Source: Ilumatobacteraceae bacterium (GTDB lineage Bacteria; Actinomycetota; Acidimicrobiia; Acidimicrobiales; Ilumatobacteraceae). From it: DNA of 64,000 bases. Positions 3,969 through 63,529 of the stretch are shown in pieces. The notes under the pieces were generated by a model. That model was not told the DNA's origin and did no database searches. It saw nothing but the letters and a program-made list of their open reading frames with translations. How positions within the stretch are numbered: position 1 is the stretch's first letter; each line of letters begins with the position of its first letter. A program made the translations under genes and the position numbers. The stretch is from the NCBI GenBank assembly GCA_009691255.1, contig SHUT01000006.1, forward strand, positions 1-64,000, read 5' to 3'.

Positions 3969-5183
3969 ATGTCCAAGATCAAAGTTGCTCAACCAGTCGT
4001 TGAACTCGATGGGGACGAAATGACGCACATCATTTGGCAGTTCATTAAAGAGCGGTTGATTTTGCCCTATCTCGACATAACTCTTGATTATTACGACCTC
4101 GGAATGGAATACCGCGATGAGACAAACGATCAAGTCACGATCGACTCAGCGCAAGCAATTCTCAAATATGGCGTAGGCGTGAAATGCGCCACGATCACTC
4201 CAGACGAGGCACGCGTCGAAGAGTTCAAGCTCAAAAAAATGTGGAAGTCTCCAAACGGCACAGTACGAAATATTCTTGGTGGTGTTGTTTTTCGCGAACC
4301 AATCATTTGCAAAAATATCCCACGCCTAGTGCCGGGTTGGACAAAACCAATCGTGATTGGGCGTCATGCACACGGCGATCAATACAAGGCAACCGATTTT
4401 CGTGTGCCCGGAGCTGGCACCGTCACCATGTCATGGATCCCTGACGGAGAAGGCGAACCCATCCAGCTCGAAGTTGCCAAGTTCACTGGCTCTGGCGTAG
4501 CAATGGGAATGTATAACTTCGATGATTCAATTCGCGATTTTGCGCGTGCATCATTGCGCTACGGATTACAACGCAACTATCCAGTCTACATGAGCACCAA
4601 GAACACAATTCTCAAGGTGTATGACGGCCGCTTCAAAGATTTGTTTGAAGAAGTTTTTGAGGCAGAGTTCAAGGCTGATTTTGAGAAAGCGGGACTGACC
4701 TATGAGCATCGTCTGATCGACGACATGGTTGCATGCGCCATGAAGTGGGAAGGCGGCTACTTGTGGGCTTGCAAGAACTATGACGGTGATGTGCAATCCG
4801 ATACGGTCGCCCAGGGATTTGGCTCACTTGGTCTAATGACATCAGTTTTGCTGACGCCAGATGGCAAGACCGTCGAAGCAGAAGCCGCTCACGGCACCGT
4901 CACTCGCCATTATCGCGAACATCAAAAAGGCAACAAGACATCCACTAATCCGGTTGCATCTATTTATGCATGGACACGCGGACTAATGCATCGCGGAAAA
5001 CTTGACAGCAATGCGCCCCTCATTGACTTTGCCGAAAAACTTGAAGCGGTCTGCGTTGAAGCAATCGAAGATGGTGAAATGACAAAAGACCTGGCCATCT
5101 TGATTTCCAAAGAGCAGCCTTGGCTGACAACAGAAGATTTCTTAGCCGCACTTGATCGTCGCTTGCAAGCAAAGATGGCATAG
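3969..5183 (+). CDS. icd: NADP-dependent isocitrate dehydrogenase (eukaryote-like dimeric type)
   Basis: [23 protein letters not shown]..., [15 protein letters not shown]; start placed after an SD-like GAAAGGGGA rather than at the ORF-track start 3813. Confidence 0.95.
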
Positions 5184-5187
5184 ACCA

Positions 5188-6171
5188 ATGCGCGCGGTTG
5201 TGTTGCGCTCTCACGGTGGTCCAGAGGTCCTTGAAATTCAAGACATCGCTGCCCCGACGCCAGGCAATGATGAGATTGCTGTAGATGTCGTTGCAACTGC
5301 ACTCAACCGCGCAGACCTCTTGCAACGAATGGGTCTGTATCCCAATCCGTTTCCAGATGACATCGAGATTCCTGGTCTTGAATTTTCTGGCACCGTGCAT
5401 TCAGTTGGCGCTCATGTTCGTCGCTGGAGTGTTGGTGACCCCGTCATGGGCATCGTGTCTGGTGGTGGTTACGCCCAACAACTTGTGCTGCCAGAGCGTC
5501 AAGCAATGAGAATCCCAACTGGAATAGCAGTTGCGGATGCAGCCGCTATTCCAGAAGTATTTATTACCGCTTGGGATGCACTTGTAGTGCAAGGTGGTCT
5601 TACGTCTGGTCGATGGGCACTTGTGCATGCCGGAGCATCGGGCGTTGGAACGGCCGCTATTCAGATTTGCAAAGCAATCGGTGCACGTATTGTGGTCACT
5701 TGCTCTGCTGGCAAAGTTGGGGCGTGTCGCTCGCTTGGAGCCAATGTTGTAGTGGATTACGGTTCGCAAGACTTTGTGGCAGAAGTCGCTGCGGCGACGT
5801 CTGGTGCCGGAGTAGATGTAGTTCTAGATGTGATTGGCGGGGATTATCTTGATCGCAATATTGCTGCCCTTGCAAGCAAGGGTCGCATTATTCAGGTCGG
5901 CGTCTTGGCTGGCAAACCAACGCTTTTTAATGTTGGCGCTTTATTGGGCAAGCGGGCAACAATTATCGGCACGGTTTTACGCGCCAGACCAGTAGAAGAG
6001 AAAATCGCAATCTCCCAGCGATTTGCTTACGAAGTTCTGCCTCTCTTTGATTCTGGCATCTTGCGAACCGTCATCGATCGCCGTTATCAATTAGACGACA
6101 TCGCAGCAGCCCAAGAATATATGGCTTCAAACGGCAATGTCGGGAAAATTGTTATTGATATTACGGGTTAG
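5188..6171 (+). CDS. NAD(P)H quinone oxidoreductase, zinc-binding dehydrogenase/QOR (PIG3-like)
   Basis: MRAVVLRSHGGPEVLEI..., HAGASGVGTAAIQICKAIGA Rossmann motif; start refined to ATG 5188. Confidence 0.9.
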   Translation: MRAVVLRSHGGPEVLEIQDIAAPTPGNDEIAVDVVATALNRADLLQRMGLYPNPFPDDIEIPGLEFSGTVHSVGAHVRRWSVGDPVMGIVSGGGYAQQLVLPERQAMRIPTGIAVADAAAIPEVFITAWDALVVQGGLTSGRWALVHAGASGVGTAAIQICKAIGARIVVTCSAGKVGACRSLGANVVVDYGSQDFVAEVAAATSGAGVDVVLDVIGGDYLDRNIAALASKGRIIQVGVLAGKPTLFNVGALLGKRATIIGTVLRARPVEEKIAISQRFAYEVLPLFDSGILRTVIDRRYQLDDIAAAQEYMASNGNVGKIVIDITG

Positions 6172-7436
6172 CGTTGAGCGATTGCAGTGTAAGTACGTTC
6201 GTCAGAACCGGTATACCACTGACGAGGGCGACTGATTTTTTGTTCTTTGTCTGCCAATAGTTCTTGCATGTGAGTGAGCCAGCCCACCGTGCGTGGGATG
6301 GCAAATAAGACAGTGAACATGTCGACTGGGAATCCAAGTGCTTGGTAAATCAGTCCTGAATAGAAGTCGACATTTGGATACAACTTGCGTGACACAAAGT
6401 AGTCATCGCTCAACGCCGCCTTTTCGAGTGCGAGTGCCACATCAAGAAGTGGATTCATGCCGGTCACTTTAAAGACTTCGTAGGCAGTGTTCTTGACGAT
6501 TGTGGCACGCGGATCAAAGTTCTTGTACACACGATGTCCAAACCCCATTAAACGACCGTGCCCATCTTTGACCTCATCGATAAAGGCTGGAACATTGGCG
6601 ACGTCTCCTATTTCGGTCAACATGCGTACCACGGCTTCGTTGGCGCCGCCGTGCAGCGGGCCATAGAGCGCAGCGGCAGCGGCAGCCGTGGCGGTGTATG
6701 GATCAGAGTGAGCAGAACTAACAACACGCATGGCGGTGGTTCCGCAGTTTTGTTCGTGGTCTGCGTGCAAGATAAACAATACGTCCATCGCTCGCGCAAG
6801 CACTGGATCGACTTTGTAGTCGTCGCCAATACGAAACATCATATTCAGGAAGTTTTCGCCGTACGACAATGAGTTGTTGGGCGACACAAAGGGCAGTCCT
6901 TGGCTAAACCGGTAGCACATTGCTGCGATGGTTGGAACCTTGGCAACAAGTCGGAGCACTTGTTTGTCAAAAGACTCTTTTTCAAAAATATCTTTGGCGT
7001 CATCGTAGAACGTGCCCAGTGCGGCAATTGCTGAAATAAACATGCCCATCGGATGAGCGTCGTAGTGGAAGCCATCAACAAAGCGTTTGCGCATGTTTTC
7101 GTGGATCATTGTGTGATGCCTTACATCAAGTTTCCACGCGCTTAGTTCTGCAGCAGTCGGCAGTTGTCCATTAATCAAAAGATATGCGACTTCTAGAAAT
7201 GTTGAATTTTGTGCGAGTTGCTCGATGGGGTAGCCGCGATATCGCAAAATTCCGGCATCACCGTCGAGGTAGGTGATTGAAGACGCACATGATGCGGTAG
7301 ACAAATATGCGGGGTCATACATGAATAGGTTCGGGTCTAGTTCCCGAAGAGCAGAAGAACTAAAAACTCCGCCGGTGATCGGAACCGTTACTTTTTTTCC
7401 AGAGCGATCGTCGATAATTGTGATGGTGTCAGCCAT
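6168..7436 (-). CDS. gltA: Citrate synthase
   Basis: LHADHEQNCGTTAMRVV, GPLHGGANEAVV, MGFGHRVYKNFDPRA. Confidence 0.96.
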   Translation of the reverse strand: MADTITIIDDRSGKKVTVPITGGVFSSSALRELDPNLFMYDPAYLSTASCASSITYLDGDAGILRYRGYPIEQLAQNSTFLEVAYLLINGQLPTAAELSAWKLDVRHHTMIHENMRKRFVDGFHYDAHPMGMFISAIAALGTFYDDAKDIFEKESFDKQVLRLVAKVPTIAAMCYRFSQGLPFVSPNNSLSYGENFLNMMFRIGDDYKVDPVLARAMDVLFILHADHEQNCGTTAMRVVSSAHSDPYTATAAAAAALYGPLHGGANEAVVRMLTEIGDVANVPAFIDEVKDGHGRLMGFGHRVYKNFDPRATIVKNTAYEVFKVTGMNPLLDVALALEKAALSDDYFVSRKLYPNVDFYSGLIYQALGFPVDMFTVLFAIPRTVGWLTHMQELLADKEQKISRPRQWYTGSDERTYTAIAQR

Positions 7437-7526
7437 TGGGATCTCCTCTAATGACGTAAGTGAATGGGGGCTTCCTCCCCGTGGGACAGTTTAGAACACG
7501 GCGCCATCACTGCAAGAGTTGTCCGA

Positions 7527-8903
7527 CTACAGGGGAGTATTGTCATGCTTGCGTTGCGTCAATTTCTCTCGTTTATCGCGCAACATATGCAAAGCGGCGC
7601 AGATCTCGGTGCGAGTATTGGCTGGGTCAATGACGGCGTCTATGTATCCGCGTTCGGCGGCAATGTATGGATTAAGAAGTCGTGCTGAGTAGTCCGCTTC
7701 AAAGGCCGCCTTTTCTTCGGGGGTTGCACGCCTCTGCAAGATAGCGGCGGCCTGGCCCGCCCCCATGACGGCAAGTTCGGCCCAAGGCCAAGCCAGACAC
7801 AAGTCATTTCCCATTTCTTTGGAGTCCATCACGATGTATGCGCCGCCATATGACTTGCGCAGGATGACGCAGATGCGGGGCACGGTGGCACGGCCATAGG
7901 CGAAGACAAGTTGAGCACCATGACGAATCATGCCTCGCCACTCCAGGTCTTTACCAGGATAAAACCCTGGCGTGTCGACCAAAGTGATGATCGGAATATT
8001 AAAGGAGTCGCACAACGCAACAAAGCGCGCTGCTTTTTGTGATGCCTCGATATCAAGTGTCCCAGCCAAAGACATCGGCTGGTTGGCGACAACTCCTACT
8101 GGGTAGCCAGCCATTGTTGTAAATCCAGTCACTACGTTGGTTGCCCACAATGGGCGCAGTTCAAAGAAATCAGCGTCGTCGCTAAGAGTCGTAATTATTT
8201 TGCGCACATCATAACTGCCAGTAGAAGTTGGCGGAATCACAGCGCCTGCTTCTGGGGTCAGTCGATCATCGGGGTCATCGGTATGCATGATATGGGGCAA
8301 CTTGTGCACGCTGTCTGGCAAGTACGCAAGCAACGACTCAACCCACTGTAGAGCGGCGGCAACATCTAGCACCACTGCTGTTGTCGCACCGCTTTGCCGC
8401 GCGTGTGCATCAGGACCACCAAGTTCTTCATTTGATACAGCAATACCAGTGAAGTCTGCAACCATTGCTGGCCCCGACACGAAGGCATACGAATCTTGAG
8501 TCATAACAACAAAATCAGCAAGACCAATCAGTAGCGCTGGTCCAGACACTGCTGGTCCAGACACAATACAAATTGTTGGCACGATACCCGAGCAATCAGC
8601 CAGAGCTTTGGCTGCTAGACCCCAACCATGCAACGCGGCGATTCCTTCTTCGATGTCAGCACCCGATGACGCCATCACTGCAACAAACGGAAGTCCTTTT
8701 GACAATGCGGTCTGGGCGGCTAGTGCGATCACGCTTGACGCGGCGGCGGATAATGCACCGCGATGAACAGAACCATCTACATCAAGCCACACCACCTGAC
8801 GACCAGTGCTCAACTGCCGAACAGATGCGTGGGCGGCGCCAGGAATCATTCGCTGTAGTGGTAGTTCGTAATGATCAGATTCTGTTTTCATCGCCACTCC
8901 CAC
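7527..8903 (-). CDS. Acyl-CoA carboxylase carboxyltransferase (PccB/AccD-like) subunit
   Basis: FNIPIITLVDTPGFYPGKDLEWRGMIRHGAQLVFAYGRATVPRICVILRKSYGGAYIVM. Confidence 0.88.
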   Translation of the reverse strand: MGVAMKTESDHYELPLQRMIPGAAHASVRQLSTGRQVVWLDVDGSVHRGALSAAASSVIALAAQTALSKGLPFVAVMASSGADIEEGIAALHGWGLAAKALADCSGIVPTICIVSGPAVSGPALLIGLADFVVMTQDSYAFVSGPAMVADFTGIAVSNEELGGPDAHARQSGATTAVVLDVAAALQWVESLLAYLPDSVHKLPHIMHTDDPDDRLTPEAGAVIPPTSTGSYDVRKIITTLSDDADFFELRPLWATNVVTGFTTMAGYPVGVVANQPMSLAGTLDIEASQKAARFVALCDSFNIPIITLVDTPGFYPGKDLEWRGMIRHGAQLVFAYGRATVPRICVILRKSYGGAYIVMDSKEMGNDLCLAWPWAELAVMGAGQAAAILQRRATPEEKAAFEADYSARLLNPYIAAERGYIDAVIDPANTRTEICAALHMLRDKREKLTQRKHDNTPL

Positions 8904-58027: not shown

Positions 58028-59770
58028 ATGGGCATTGTTGACGACGACATCGAGAGAGTGCGCGTTGCCATCTCGATCGTCGATGTAGTTAGCGAGTATG
58101 TCACCCTCAGGCGAGTCGGCAGGAGCCTTGTTGGTTTGTGCCCTTTTCATTCTGAAAAATCTGGTTCATTTAATGTTCGCGAAGACACTGGTCGGTTCAA
58201 GTGCTTCGGATGCGACACCGGTGGCGATGTTTTTAAATTCATTCAGGACATTGAGCATCTCGACTTTGTTGCGTCCGTTGAACGACTTGCTCTGAGGGCG
58301 GGCGTCGAACTGCACTACACCACGGGTCCAGGCGCTGGCAAAGATCGCAAACGCCGCCAACAACTTCTTGAGGTAATGGAAAAAGCAGTTGCGTGGTATG
58401 AGAAGCGACTCCTAGAGAGCCCAGACGGCAGAGCTGCTCGTGATTACTTGCGATCTCGGGGCATCTCGGGCGACATCGCTCGACAGTTTCGTTTGGGCTG
58501 GGCTCCTGACGATTGGGACACGCTGTGTCGCGAGATCGGAGTAGCCGATGATCTTTTGCGTGAAGTCGGACTTGGTTTCACCAACAAGCGTGGTCGCATG
58601 CAGGATTCTTTTCGTGCTCGGGTGTTGTTCCCGATTTTTGACGAGACGGGTGTGCCTGTTGCCTTTGGTGGTCGGGTGTTGCCGGGTAGCGATGATCCAG
58701 CAAAATACAAGAACTCAAGCGAGACTCCGATTTATGCCAAGTCGCGCACCCTGTATGGTGTCAACTGGGCAAAGAACGACATCGTCAAAGCCGACACCGT
58801 TGTGGTCTGTGAGGGCTATACCGACGTCATTGGCTTTCATCGCTCGGGGGTGGGCATCGCTGTGGCTACATGCGGAACTGCATTAACAGAAGATCATGTG
58901 CGTTTGCTCAAGCGATTCGCCACAAAAGTTGTTCTTGCATTTGATGCCGACTCCGCAGGTCAAGGCGCAGCCGCACGTTTTTATGAATGGGAAAAGCGAT
59001 ACGACGTGCAAGTTTCTGTTGCGCGATTTCCACAGGGCAAAGACCCCGGCGACCTAGCGTCAAGCAATCCAGATGCACTTCGCGACGCTGTCTCTGGAGC
59101 AACACCATTTTTGGGATTCCGAGTGCAACGCGCTCTCAATGCCGGAAACATTAAGACCCCTGAAGGTCGCGCCCGCACCGCAGAGTCCGCCATCATGATC
59201 ATCAACGAGCACCCAGACATCAACGTGAGGCGATTGTATGCGAGTGAAGTAGCCATGTTCACAACACTTCCTGCACAAGACATGGTGCGCATGGTCGAAC
59301 GCGGAGGCAGTGCACGAGTTGTCGTGGCAACCCCCGTGCGCCAGCGCCCCCAGGGAGCAGGTTTCGTCGCACTCACAATGCTCATTCATCGCTGGAACGA
59401 CATAGCCCCTTGGCTAGTAGAGGCACTCTTTGTCCAAGACACTTATCGCGAAGCATTTAAGGCCATTGTTGAGGCTGACGGCAATGTTGAGGCTGCATTA
59501 TTACTCGTCGAGGGCGAAGCCCGAGACATTATTGAGCGAGCAGCCGTGTCTGATTTTGAGACAGACCCAATTCTAGAATCTCGCGCATTGTTGGCTGCTG
59601 CAGTTCGTCGTGAGTTGGCCCAACGTGTGCACATCACCGACGCTGATGAGATTCGTCAAGACCGTCAAGCCCGAATCACTCTGTCTGATTTCGATGATCC
59701 TCGTAAAGCCAATGACGCTGCAGTGCAGTTGTTACAGTGGCTGACAAGTCGCACAACTTCAGCAGCATGA
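58028..59770 (+). CDS. dnaG: DNA primase
   Basis: VGLCPFHSEKSGSFNVREDTGRFKCFGCDTGGDVFKF zinc domain, VVCEGYTDVIGFHRSGV TOPRIM. Confidence 0.96.
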   Translation: MGIVDDDIERVRVAISIVDVVSEYVTLRRVGRSLVGLCPFHSEKSGSFNVREDTGRFKCFGCDTGGDVFKFIQDIEHLDFVASVERLALRAGVELHYTTGPGAGKDRKRRQQLLEVMEKAVAWYEKRLLESPDGRAARDYLRSRGISGDIARQFRLGWAPDDWDTLCREIGVADDLLREVGLGFTNKRGRMQDSFRARVLFPIFDETGVPVAFGGRVLPGSDDPAKYKNSSETPIYAKSRTLYGVNWAKNDIVKADTVVVCEGYTDVIGFHRSGVGIAVATCGTALTEDHVRLLKRFATKVVLAFDADSAGQGAAARFYEWEKRYDVQVSVARFPQGKDPGDLASSNPDALRDAVSGATPFLGFRVQRALNAGNIKTPEGRARTAESAIMIINEHPDINVRRLYASEVAMFTTLPAQDMVRMVERGGSARVVVATPVRQRPQGAGFVALTMLIHRWNDIAPWLVEALFVQDTYREAFKAIVEADGNVEAALLLVEGEARDIIERAAVSDFETDPILESRALLAAAVRRELAQRVHITDADEIRQDRQARITLSDFDDPRKANDAAVQLLQWLTSRTTSAA

Positions 59771-61002
59771 CAAAAAAATTCACGATACCCACGCCACCTG
59801 ATGGAGTAGTGCCTACTGATTGGTTGTCATTGCTTGCGTCATGCGATGAAGAAGGACAAATCGATCAAGACGACATCGTTCAGGTGTTGCGAAATGTTGT
59901 TCTCACTGAAGACATGCTGACTTCGGTCACCAAAGTTCTTGAAGATGCTGGATACGTCATCAAAAGTGAAACCGAAACCGACGCCGAAACCGAAACCGAC
60001 GCCGAAACCGAAACCGAAACCGAAACTAACACCACTGCGTCAGTGCCTACCCAGAAGACCACTTCTAAATCAATCACTATATCTATTGGCGACACAGTTG
60101 GTCTGTATTTGCGCGAAATTGGTCAGGTGCAATTGCTTACGGTCGAAGACGAGCGTCGGCTCGGCAAAGCAATTCAATTAGGACTGCAAGCAGAGGCAAC
60201 TGAGCTGCCAGAAGGTGCATCACTGCGCGAACGACGAGATCGACGAGGCGTGATACAAGAGGGAGAAAAAGCGGTTCAAGAAATGATCAAAGCCAACTTG
60301 CGGCTAGTTGTTTCTATTGCCCGTCGGTATGTCGGGCGCGATCTACAGTTAGCCGATCTTATTCAAGAGGGCAATATCGGACTGATGCGTGCAGCCAAAA
60401 AATACGACTGGGAAAAAGGTTTTAAGTTCTCGACATATTCCACATGGTGGATCCGTCAGGCCATGATGCGCGCAATGACCGAGCAAGGGCGCACGATCCG
60501 TATTCCTGGAAACATTGTCGGAGAAACAAACCGACTTAACAGAGCACAACGAGAACTTGTGATGGAACTCAAACGAGAGCCAACCATCGAAGAACTCGCT
60601 GTAAGAACATTTCTTGAACCATATAAAATTTCTGAGTTGATGCAACTCTCTACCGTCACGATGAGTCTTGATGCGCCATTATCTCAAGACGAAGACAGCT
60701 CCGCTGGTTATGAGCGGGTGTATGACGACGAGCAAGAGACGCCGCTCGACATCGCTGAACGTCAGCAACTAACTGAGATCATTCAATCAGAGCTATCAAA
60801 TTTGCCCGAACGAGATCGGCGTATTCTTGAAAAACGATTTGGTATCGGTATTGATAATGTCGTTCCGCGCACACTTGATGATGTGGCCGAAGAAGAAGGC
60901 GTCACTCGGGAGCGCATTCGCCAGATTGAGCAAAAGACCCTGGCACGGCTTAGGCACCCAAACAACAGCCTAAAACTTCGAGGATTGATCGACGAAGCCT
61001 GA
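59767..61002 (+). CDS. rpoD: Primary RNA polymerase sigma factor
   Basis: LRLVVSIARRYVGRDLQLADLIQEGNIGLMRAAKKYDWEKGFKFSTYSTWWIRQA; region 4 HTH; ATGA overlap with dnaG. Confidence 0.95.
   Translation: MTKKFTIPTPPDGVVPTDWLSLLASCDEEGQIDQDDIVQVLRNVVLTEDMLTSVTKVLEDAGYVIKSETETDAETETDAETETETETNTTASVPTQKTTSKSITISIGDTVGLYLREIGQVQLLTVEDERRLGKAIQLGLQAEATELPEGASLRERRDRRGVIQEGEKAVQEMIKANLRLVVSIARRYVGRDLQLADLIQEGNIGLMRAAKKYDWEKGFKFSTYSTWWIRQAMMRAMTEQGRTIRIPGNIVGETNRLNRAQRELVMELKREPTIEELAVRTFLEPYKISELMQLSTVTMSLDAPLSQDEDSSAGYERVYDDEQETPLDIAERQQLTEIIQSELSNLPERDRRILEKRFGIGIDNVVPRTLDDVAEEEGVTRERIRQIEQKTLARLRHPNNSLKLRGLIDEA
59968..60027 (+). repeat. Hexanucleotide repeat (GAAACC/GACGCC, 10 units) inside rpoD
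   Basis: GAAACC GAAACC GACGCC GAAACC GAAACC GACGCC GAAACC GAAACC GAAACC GAAACT, encoding ET/DA repeats. Confidence 0.9.
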
Positions 61003-61193: not shown

Positions 61194-61270
<77 letters not shown>

Positions 61271-61278
61271 CGGGGTAC

Positions 61279-61311
61279 GCACCTAAGTCCGATGTTTTGT
61301 GCACCTAAGTC
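61279..61311 (+). repeat. Two direct copies of GCACCTAAGTC at 22-nt period
   Basis: 61279-61289 and 61301-61311, just inside the putative left end. Confidence 0.7.
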
Positions 61312-61372
61312 GGTCGCGTCGCGCAACAGTTCTTAGTACGGCCAGAGTTGTCAGTGTTGCCCGTATTTGCAC

Positions 61373-61394
61373 CCAGTTAGTAAACAGTCGCATT
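61373..61394 (+). repeat. Imperfect direct repeat, left copy (18/22 identical to 62353-62374)
   Basis: CCAGTTAGTAAACAGTCGCATT vs CCAGTTAGCAAACAACCGAATT. Confidence 0.6.
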
Positions 61395-61455
61395 GACTTC
61401 TGCTAGCAAGCGAGACGCAAGACAAACTGGTGCATAAGGGAGTCTGAGCAGTACA

Positions 61456-61469
61456 GTCATGTACATGAC
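61456..61469. promoter_or_regulatory. 14-bp perfect palindrome GTCATGTACATGAC overlapping the small-ORF start
   Basis: Overlaps TACAGT (61452-61457) -10-like element and ATG 61465. Confidence 0.5.
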
Positions 61470-61590
61470 AGATGCCCCGCAAGCGAACACTGCTACCTCT
61501 CTGGTTGCTAACTGTATTTGCGAGGAAGGTCTTAAGACTTGGCTCACTAACCTCATATTTGAGCAGACCTACAATGGTGAAGCGGCATGA
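61465..61590 (+). CDS. Small ORF (41 aa), translationally coupled (ATGA) to the GIY-YIG gene; absent from the ORF track
   Basis: MTDAPQANTATSLVANCICEEGLKTWLTNLIFEQTYNGEAA*; stop overlaps ATG 61587. Confidence 0.5.
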   Translation: MTDAPQANTATSLVANCICEEGLKTWLTNLIFEQTYNGEAA

Positions 61591-62351
61591 GTCCTGAACT
61601 ACGCGAAGAACTTGCTAGCGCATTGCGCAACAATGACGGGCAACTTGGCAAGGTGTTCGCTCTGCTTGAAGAGGGCGAGACCACCAACCGCGAGTTTGTC
61701 GAAGGTGGTGCTGCTGCTAACGAAGGGGCCGTTGGGAACCTGAGGCGGGTAATCAAGACTGTCCTTGAGGGAAACCCACCGAAGGCTCCGTCAAGGGCAC
61801 TCGGCGCTCGGAGTAGCATCGGCGGGCTTCTTCGCGACAATCCGGGTCTGAGCACCGCCGCCCGCGAGTATCTCGTGCGTTTGCGCGATGAGCTTGAAGT
61901 AATTGCAACGGACAGCAAAGCGATTGAAGAAGAAGACAAGGACCTAGAACGTGCATCAATAGAGATGGAGAAGTCGCTAGAGGAACTGCCTGGGGTCTAT
62001 GTCTTCACACTTCCGTCGTTCTATCGCACGGTGCAGAAAACTGATCCGGATCGCCACTGGTTAAAGGTAGGCAATACCGATCGTGCTGCTGGCGTGCGAA
62101 TAGGCGAGCAGATGCGCGCAACCGGGCTCCCCGAAGATCCTTGGATAGCGCGCGTATATCGCCATCCTGTTCTCGACCCTAGAGAACTTGAATCACAGTT
62201 CCATCGGCTGCTGACGGCCGCTGGCCATTCCCGGGCATCTGGGAAACACTCAGGTCGTGAATGGTACGCAACCAATCTTGAGTTCCTAGACGCAATCGGC
62301 TCCGCTCTAGGTTGCGTGATTTCAGAGAATCACTCACCTGAGGATCTCTAG
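61587..62351 (+). CDS. Protein with C-terminal GIY-YIG (T5orf172/MUG113-like) domain and novel helical N-terminus
   Basis: GVYVF...HWLKVGNT...GVRIGEQMRATG...ELESQFHRLL...GREWYA. Confidence 0.75.
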   Translation: MSPELREELASALRNNDGQLGKVFALLEEGETTNREFVEGGAAANEGAVGNLRRVIKTVLEGNPPKAPSRALGARSSIGGLLRDNPGLSTAAREYLVRLRDELEVIATDSKAIEEEDKDLERASIEMEKSLEELPGVYVFTLPSFYRTVQKTDPDRHWLKVGNTDRAAGVRIGEQMRATGLPEDPWIARVYRHPVLDPRELESQFHRLLTAAGHSRASGKHSGREWYATNLEFLDAIGSALGCVISENHSPEDL

Positions 62352-62352
62352 A

Positions 62353-62374
62353 CCAGTTAGCAAACAACCGAATT
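62353..62374 (+). repeat. Imperfect direct repeat, right copy
   Basis: CCAGTTAGCAAACAACCGAATT. Confidence 0.6.
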
Positions 62375-62476
62375 TCGATTAGAAATACCCTAAGCGTCAG
62401 GCCTCAAAGCCTGCAGTTACTGGACTAGAGAATTAGGTTCATACCCCACCACGGTGAGACAGATGTCAACGTTTGC

Positions 62477-63529
62477 GTGTTGAATAGTGCAATGCCGACC
62501 ACGCCATCTCGACGACAATTTATTGGCGGAGCAGTAGCGCTCGGTAGTGCCAGTGTGATTGCTGCGGCGTTTCGTTCGTTGAGCGGAACACCAACATCAA
62601 CGGGTTCTGCCGTGCTGGCAACTCCAAGCACAATTCCTAGCCCAACCCTTGCTCCTTTAATTACGCCAGTTAAAGACTTTTATCGCATTGATACAGCATT
62701 TGAGATTCCACAAGTAAACCCCACAACTTGGTCTCTTCGAATTAGTGGAATGGTCGACAAGGAAAAACGCTTCACACTCGATGACATCAATGCAATGCCC
62801 CAAGTCACCCACGACATCACGATGGGCTGTGTGTCAAATGAAGTCGGTGGTGATCTGATCGGTACGGCTCAGTGGAGTGGTGTTTTGCTCGCCGATGTTT
62901 TGCGTTCTTGTGGGGTGCAATCAGGCGCTGAACAATTAGTTAGCAGAAGTGTTGACGGATGGACCTGTGGAACCCCAGTAGACGCAATCATGGACGGTCG
63001 TCCTGCAATGCTGGTGACATCAATGAACGGCGAACCGCTGATTCCCAAGCATGGGTTCCCGGTGCGAATGGTGGTTCCTGGATTATTTGGCTACGTGTCG
63101 GCAACAAAGTGGGTGCAAGATATTGAACTCACCACATGGAACGCATTCGATGCATATTGGATTGACCGTGGGTGGGCCAAACAAGGGCCAATGCTGTCGT
63201 CGAGTCGCATTGATCTTCCGCGCAATGGCGCACAGATAAAAACACCATCGGTCATCATCGCCGGATTCGCATGGGCCCCACGCGCTGGCGTGAAATCAGT
63301 TGATGTGCGCGTTGATGACGGTCAGTGGATTCCAGCCGAAGTCAAAAAATCACCGACTGGTGATACGTGGTGTCAATGGAAACTCAACTGGACAGTGACA
63401 CCAGGTCAACACAAGTTCACTACTCGCGTCATTGATGCCACAGGTGCCATTCAAGACGAACAAGTTCGTCCTGTCGAGCCAAGCGGCGCAACTGGATACC
63501 ACTCCATTAGCGTCGAGTGTGTTGCCTGA
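62477..63529 (+). CDS. Tat-exported molybdopterin-dependent oxidoreductase (sulfite oxidase-like)
   Basis: SRRQFIGGAVALGSASVIAAA twin-Arg; TLDDINAMPQVTHDITMGCVSNEVGGDLIGTAQWSGVLLADVL; start may be ATG 62492. Confidence 0.88.
   Translation: MLNSAMPTTPSRRQFIGGAVALGSASVIAAAFRSLSGTPTSTGSAVLATPSTIPSPTLAPLITPVKDFYRIDTAFEIPQVNPTTWSLRISGMVDKEKRFTLDDINAMPQVTHDITMGCVSNEVGGDLIGTAQWSGVLLADVLRSCGVQSGAEQLVSRSVDGWTCGTPVDAIMDGRPAMLVTSMNGEPLIPKHGFPVRMVVPGLFGYVSATKWVQDIELTTWNAFDAYWIDRGWAKQGPMLSSSRIDLPRNGAQIKTPSVIIAGFAWAPRAGVKSVDVRVDDGQWIPAEVKKSPTGDTWCQWKLNWTVTPGQHKFTTRVIDATGAIQDEQVRPVEPSGATGYHSISVECVA

Follow-up and report, generated by a model that had tools for sequence, protein, structure and literature searches.

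Towards the right-hand end of the window, by which we mean the whole 64,000-nt stretch of DNA that was analysed, a tRNA-Met gene (anticodon CAT; 61194-61270) is followed by two overlapping ORFs, one of 41 aa (61465-61590) and one of 254 aa predicted to encode a GIY-YIG-type nuclease (61587-62351). All three lie on the forward strand. The preliminary description of this DNA had singled out the small ORF as a gene coupled to the nuclease gene, and what it had read from the letters was reproduced: translation of 61465-61590 gives exactly the peptide claimed, the TGA of the ORF (61588-61590) overlaps the ATG of the 254-aa gene, a TACAGT hexamer (61452-61457) stands 7 nt 5′ of the ATG at 61465 in a TACAGT-N7-ATG arrangement, and a 14-bp palindrome, GTCATGTACATGAC (61456-61469), covers the ORF start. 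It had overlooked a second in-frame ATG two codons upstream, at 61459, from which the ORF is 43 aa long.

Besides its translation, the small ORF was analysed by shuffles, codon score and homologue search. Dinucleotide-preserving shuffles of the 192 nt that precede the GIY-YIG start produced coupled ORFs 41 aa or longer in 4.9% of runs when the ATGA was kept and in 2.1% when the fourth base was random. Perfect 14-bp palindromes occur twice in the 64,000-nt window, where about four are expected (64000/4^7), and therefore only the position of the palindrome is notable. At 0.054 bits per codon, the codon score is intermediate between those of real and of spurious ORFs and does not decide the coding status: among 41-codon stretches taken from real genes 11% have a lower score, and 10% of the spurious ORFs have a higher one. 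What is gene-like about the ORF, namely its overlap with the nuclease gene and its position, is weak.

No convincing homologue of the ORF was found in 224 genomes of the family or in any of the fetched loci, and the peptide matched nothing in Pfam, PHROGs, NCBIfam or PADLOC. The best weak match (38% identity, in genome G593, locus L136) had an E-value of 0.004 per genome over 224 genomes and sits in a 142-aa frame with no GIY-YIG gene there; we counted it as chance. The recurring 14-36 matches of the peptide contain stops and represent a single chance match repeated in orthologous DNA. A search for homologues of the peptide upstream of other GIY-YIG genes had been suggested as a check, and none was recognisable at the 44 GIY-YIG homologues whose upstream regions were scanned. 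About one in five homologues carries some 30-75-aa ORF that ends near the gene start, none of them like the 41-aa ORF, which indicates that such ORFs arise often. At the closest complete homologue (L043; 75-76% identity) there is no such ORF, and the gene starts 7 nt behind an 850-aa helicase gene. The GIY-YIG gene is thus found in relatives without the ORF (L043) or without one recognisably like it, an occurrence that the preliminary description had taken to speak against its proposal, although the nearest copies of the cassette described below (L044 and L101) end or are deleted before the ORF position.

That proposal was a two-gene toxin/antitoxin or small defence module, of which the nuclease-type gene and the defence association of its family have held up, while the small ORF as its partner, without a convincing homologue and absent at L043, has not. 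A peptide that neutralises or guides the nuclease, with the palindrome as an autoregulatory operator, would fit the TGA/ATG overlap, the palindrome and the −10-like hexamer at the ORF start, as well as the defence-associated family and the AbiEii-like and PIN-like cargo of related elements (the PIN likeness is by eye only, with no Pfam match). We nevertheless regard it as very doubtful, given that the ORF is missing or unrecognisable beside the other nuclease genes, that it has neither a convincing homologue in the 224 genomes nor a database match, and that palindromes of this size are as frequent by chance. The conserved small partner gene expected of a type II toxin-antitoxin operon was not found in the 224 genomes or in the 44 upstream regions.

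That the ORF is pure chance and untranslated, the cargo consisting of the GIY-YIG gene and its promoter, has slightly less than an even claim in our judgement: coupled ORFs of this length in 2-5% of shuffles, the ambiguous codon score and the lack of homologues agree with it, whereas the ORF is placed, and overlaps the next gene, as a coupled leader would, for which 2-5% is not negligible evidence. Most likely the 41-aa ORF is a private leader or a chance ORF, and a role as a conserved antitoxin or immunity gene is improbable. The ORF lies in the 5′ region of the GIY-YIG cargo and, if translated, would through its TGA/ATG overlap link its translation to that of the nuclease gene, making it a leader at most.

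The assignment of the 254-aa gene as a predicted GIY-YIG-type nuclease gene draws on motifs, homologues and an AF2 model. The residues G136, Y138, K160, G162, R171 and E202 are invariant in 37 homologues, to which H206, H214 and W226 are likewise common. The model (pLDDT 90.3) places a strand-strand-helix-strand-helix core (strands at 136-141, 157-164 and 186-192; helices at 168-179 and 198-211) behind a helical N-terminal part (residues 1-131). With the MUG113/T5orf172 branch of the GIY-YIG superfamily (PF13455) the protein shares the GxY...KxG motifs, the catalytic-type R and E and the core topology; it differs in its sub-threshold match to Pfam MUG113 (E = 0.027, 15.5 bits vs a cut-off of 22.3) and in the long helical N-terminal part. 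Neither Foldseek nor a profile search returned a PDB match at E <= 0.001, and a fold search of the whole model against the PDB matched nothing; the basis of the assignment is therefore motif and topology.

The GIY-YIG gene is accessory: none of the 100 nearest genomes has it, and among 396 genomes of the class it occurs in five, its own included and one of the five being a weak broken match. The genome scan yielded 49 relatives, mostly in Actinomycetota, and the neighbourhoods that follow are a sample of loci and not a count over all 49. The L043 operon, one of restriction-modification, consists of an Eco57I methylase gene, the gene of the 850-aa (ResIII) helicase and, last, the GIY-YIG gene, with an HNH gene behind it. 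The contig of L043 (CANIAA010000028.1) is filed as Flavobacteriales, and its GIY-YIG protein is 75-76% identical to the actinobacterial one, which could reflect transfer or misbinning. Type ISP restriction-modification enzymes precede the homologue at L057, at L059 (by PADLOC) and at L074 (with EcsC between), and the genes in front of it at other loci are those of Type I HsdR (L052), ZacC (L050) and a UvrD helicase (L048). A defence role of the family is plausible by this association, and it is from the neighbourhood that we infer a defence function for the cargo in the window, which would likely act by cleaving DNA that enters the cell, either unaided or in concert with a restriction system of the host. 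Neither the GIY-YIG protein nor the end motif of the element matched a phage record or a viral contig, and a viral origin was set aside.

The two ORFs lie on inserted DNA. In the relatives G022 (L037) and G028 (L038), tRNA-Asn and tRNA-Met are followed directly by a molybdopterin oxidoreductase gene, and the same gene stands in the window at 62477-63529, behind 1181 bp of extra DNA between two copies of CCCACCACGG. The left copy (61264-61273) spans the 3′ end of the tRNA-Met gene, which is the insertion target and is left intact (ARAGORN; Rfam RF00005); the right copy (62445-62454) is followed by chromosomal sequence (GTGAGAC...). The repeat amounts to a 5-, 7- or 9-nt duplication, according to where one sets the ends of the element, and it can be read as a target duplication of that length or as a recombinase core. 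A gene for a sigma-70 type factor, with an N-terminal low-complexity TETDAETE stretch, lies at 59737-61002, immediately before the two tRNA genes.

The element is bounded by inverted repeats (GGGGTAYGMACCTAAKT), the left one being GGGGTACGCACCTAAGT (61272-61288) and the right one AATTAGGTTCATACCCC (62431-62447). Its left arm (61274-61394) closes with CCAGTTAGTAAACAGTCGCATT (61373-61394), behind which the cargo begins, and this sequence recurs just 3′ of the GIY-YIG stop as CCAGTTAGCAAACAACCGAATT (62353-62374; 82% over 22 nt), where it opens the conserved right end (model R1; 62353-62451). These features, too, were assigned to the forward strand. The left arm is homologous, through CCAGTTAGTAAACAGTCGCATT, to that of a cargo-less unit at L101 (11313-11413; z = 12.4, with none of 300 shuffles as good), and without its cargo and one repeat the window element would measure 200 bp, in line with the size of the cargo-less units. 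It has no ORFs other than those of 41 and 254 aa and encodes no transposase and no integrase. In the left end, GCACCTAAGTC occurs twice, 22 bp apart (61279-61311), the first copy alone lying within the terminal inverted repeat. A Tn3-like end (38-bp GGGG-N30-TAAG) fits the left end by eye and does not fit the other ends. A known or structured RNA was also considered and rejected: Rfam matches above the cut-off were tRNAs only, the RNAalifold covariation term for the right end was unfavourable, and the cargo-less unit folded no better than its shuffles (z -1.05).

Further copies of the right end were found in other genomes. A covariance model identified 14 copies in 11 of the 224 family genomes, and one further copy lies in another family of the order (G846, L179), giving 15 copies in 12 genomes, of which the second copy in G474 and that in G059 are weak; the first 31 nt of the right end occur in seven of the 224. 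A candidate behind a tRNA-Arg gene (L163, E = 0.0016) is unproven. Because most of the others are at the ends of contigs, the window and G054 copies are the only two with cargo in which both element ends could be seen. In G054 an initiator tRNA-Met gene is followed by an element whose left and right ends enclose 12 kb, Type I restriction genes among them, with CCACCAAGA and CCACCAAAA as the direct repeats. About 90 bp past this right end a second initiator tRNA-Met 3′ end (GGTTCCCCTCCCCGCCACCAAATG) is present (G054:C2; L161, about 5740-5970), and islands seem to be nested at this tRNA gene. In G846 the right end is preceded by an ORF and, before that, by the terminal part of an HsdR gene that shares 84% identity with the G054 one.

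Smaller and empty units were found as well. In G551 a tRNA-Arg gene is followed by a truncated GIY-YIG gene, a right end, a 933-aa ORF and then a second, cargo-less unit, whose ends are 171-173 bp apart (L101, 11313-11485) and which has no clear target duplication; relatives of G551 have the tRNA-Arg gene directly before a CarD-like gene, so that 3.5 kb have been added in G551. G538 has a unit of about 185 bp with an eroded left end behind tRNA-Val. In G562 a contig starts with a 199-bp unit whose 17-bp inverted repeats are exact (L159, 1-199), followed by a DUF347 gene and another right end. Apart from the truncated gene at L101, GIY-YIG cargo recurs on the element at L044 (75%). In G474 the right end is preceded by an AbiEii-like gene. 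The right ends at L103 and L162, from two genomes, stand behind the same small lipoprotein-like tail (…GQKTTG…EAWCE), which at L162 is fused to an AbiEii-like start; at L103 a second GTTAGGC site follows in tandem. The last co-oriented cargo ORF stops 4-7 nt before the GTTAG core in five copies (the window, L101, L102, L162 and L179), and the distance is 25 nt at L044 and 37 nt at L161.

We consider it probable that the region is a non-autonomous mobile cassette of tRNA ends that carries a defence-associated nuclease. The cassette (61272-62447), inserted at the 3′ CCA end of the tRNA-Met gene, consists of a left arm of about 120 nt, the cargo and a right end of about 99 nt, closed by inverted repeats. 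As it holds no mobility enzyme, it must presumably move in trans, in the manner of mobile insertion cassettes and preferentially to the CCA ends of tRNA genes. The enzyme responsible was not found, and the only candidate for an autonomous parent with the same ends was a DDE-type ORF within the G054 island, more likely an unrelated IS. This transposase ORF (G054:C2; L164, about 289534-291027) has a 4-nt overlap with an ORF of 333 aa that by eye resembles a degenerate tyrosine recombinase. With a weak DDE_Tnp_1_6 match for the one and no Pfam match for the other, both were set aside as movers and assigned to a separate IS.

A different origin, to which we give a lesser though real chance, is that the element is the remnant of a larger tyrosine-integrase island, with CCCACCACGG as attL and attR and the integrase gene lost, leaving it mobilisable in cis. 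Its target, a tRNA 3′ end, is the one such islands use, the att sites of elements that target tRNA genes can measure as little as 8 bp (PMC6563490), and a distant GIY-YIG homologue (L040/L049) does lie in a 4.3-kb island that has 54-bp copies of a tRNA-Leu end on both sides and a Phage_integrase gene. At L040 (G112) these copies are perfect (4466-4519 and 8762-8815), and the tyrosine integrase ORF spans 7382-8065. The right end of the window element, however, repeats nothing of the tRNA T-arm or acceptor beyond CCCACCACGG, the ends are inverted repeats, and an eroded island would not yield the cargo-less units of 170-200 bp.

We also considered integron-like cassettes, with the GTTAG core as a recombination site just behind the stop at which single genes are inserted in the same orientation. 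The 22-nt direct repeats around the window cargo, the five stops 4-7 nt before GTTAG, the GTTAGGC site at L103 and the pairs of same-orientation sites on one contig in G551 and G562 would suit it; it is nonetheless improbable, as the aligned right ends, on inspection, have neither end of an attC site in place (no RYYYAAC...GTTRRRY order), and TIGR02249 stayed below its cut-off in 13 genomes, which are incomplete, with Xer-like scores only, as also in all control genomes. Hardly more probable is that the conserved ends belong to an undescribed integron-like system of Actinomycetota (Acidimicrobiia, by the names of the homologues), in which a trans-acting enzyme other than an integron integrase brings single genes or defence operons to tRNA 3′ ends through the GTTAG core.

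The cassette around the ORF is a more interesting object than the ORF itself. Phage defence varies in small streamlined aquatic bacteria, and the integrase-free traffic of single defence genes at tRNA ends is poorly known. Short elements with shared ends, either empty or loaded with nuclease, Type I restriction or AbiEii-like cargo, give a handle on that traffic, and their defined end sequence can be used to look for the moving enzyme. The locus also illustrates that a short ORF may appear coupled to a defence gene and yet be confined to a single copy.

Several known systems share features with the element. Integron gene cassettes likewise have co-oriented ORFs that end just before a conserved site, and repeats around the cargo; unlike theirs, the site is not attC-like, and no integron integrase was found in the 13 incomplete genomes. 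Casposons use tRNA genes, and their target duplication is longer than the repeat of this element. As Cas1 transposons they have terminal inverted repeats and a target duplication (PMC6563490), and the element resembles them in the former and, by its flanking direct repeat, perhaps in the latter, whereas its window copy has no Cas1 or polymerase. With the tRNA-targeting integrative elements of tyrosine integrases it has in common the site at the tRNA 3′ end, the defence or otherwise variable cargo and the presence or absence between relatives; it differs in that the window copy has no integrase, the ends are inverted repeats and the junctions share only CCCACCACGG. Tycheposons are also tRNA-targeting integrative elements. 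Mobile insertion cassettes and MITEs are non-autonomous derivatives of ISs, some of which carry a passenger gene (PMC5444012). The element departs from them in its repeated occurrence at tRNA 3′ ends, in the internal direct repeat around the cargo, in a parent transposase that was not found and in cargo that extends to a 12-kb island with Type I restriction-modification. It is like them in that the window copy has terminal inverted repeats, a passenger gene, no transposase and a short flanking direct repeat, and in that other copies are cargo-less units of 170-200 bp.
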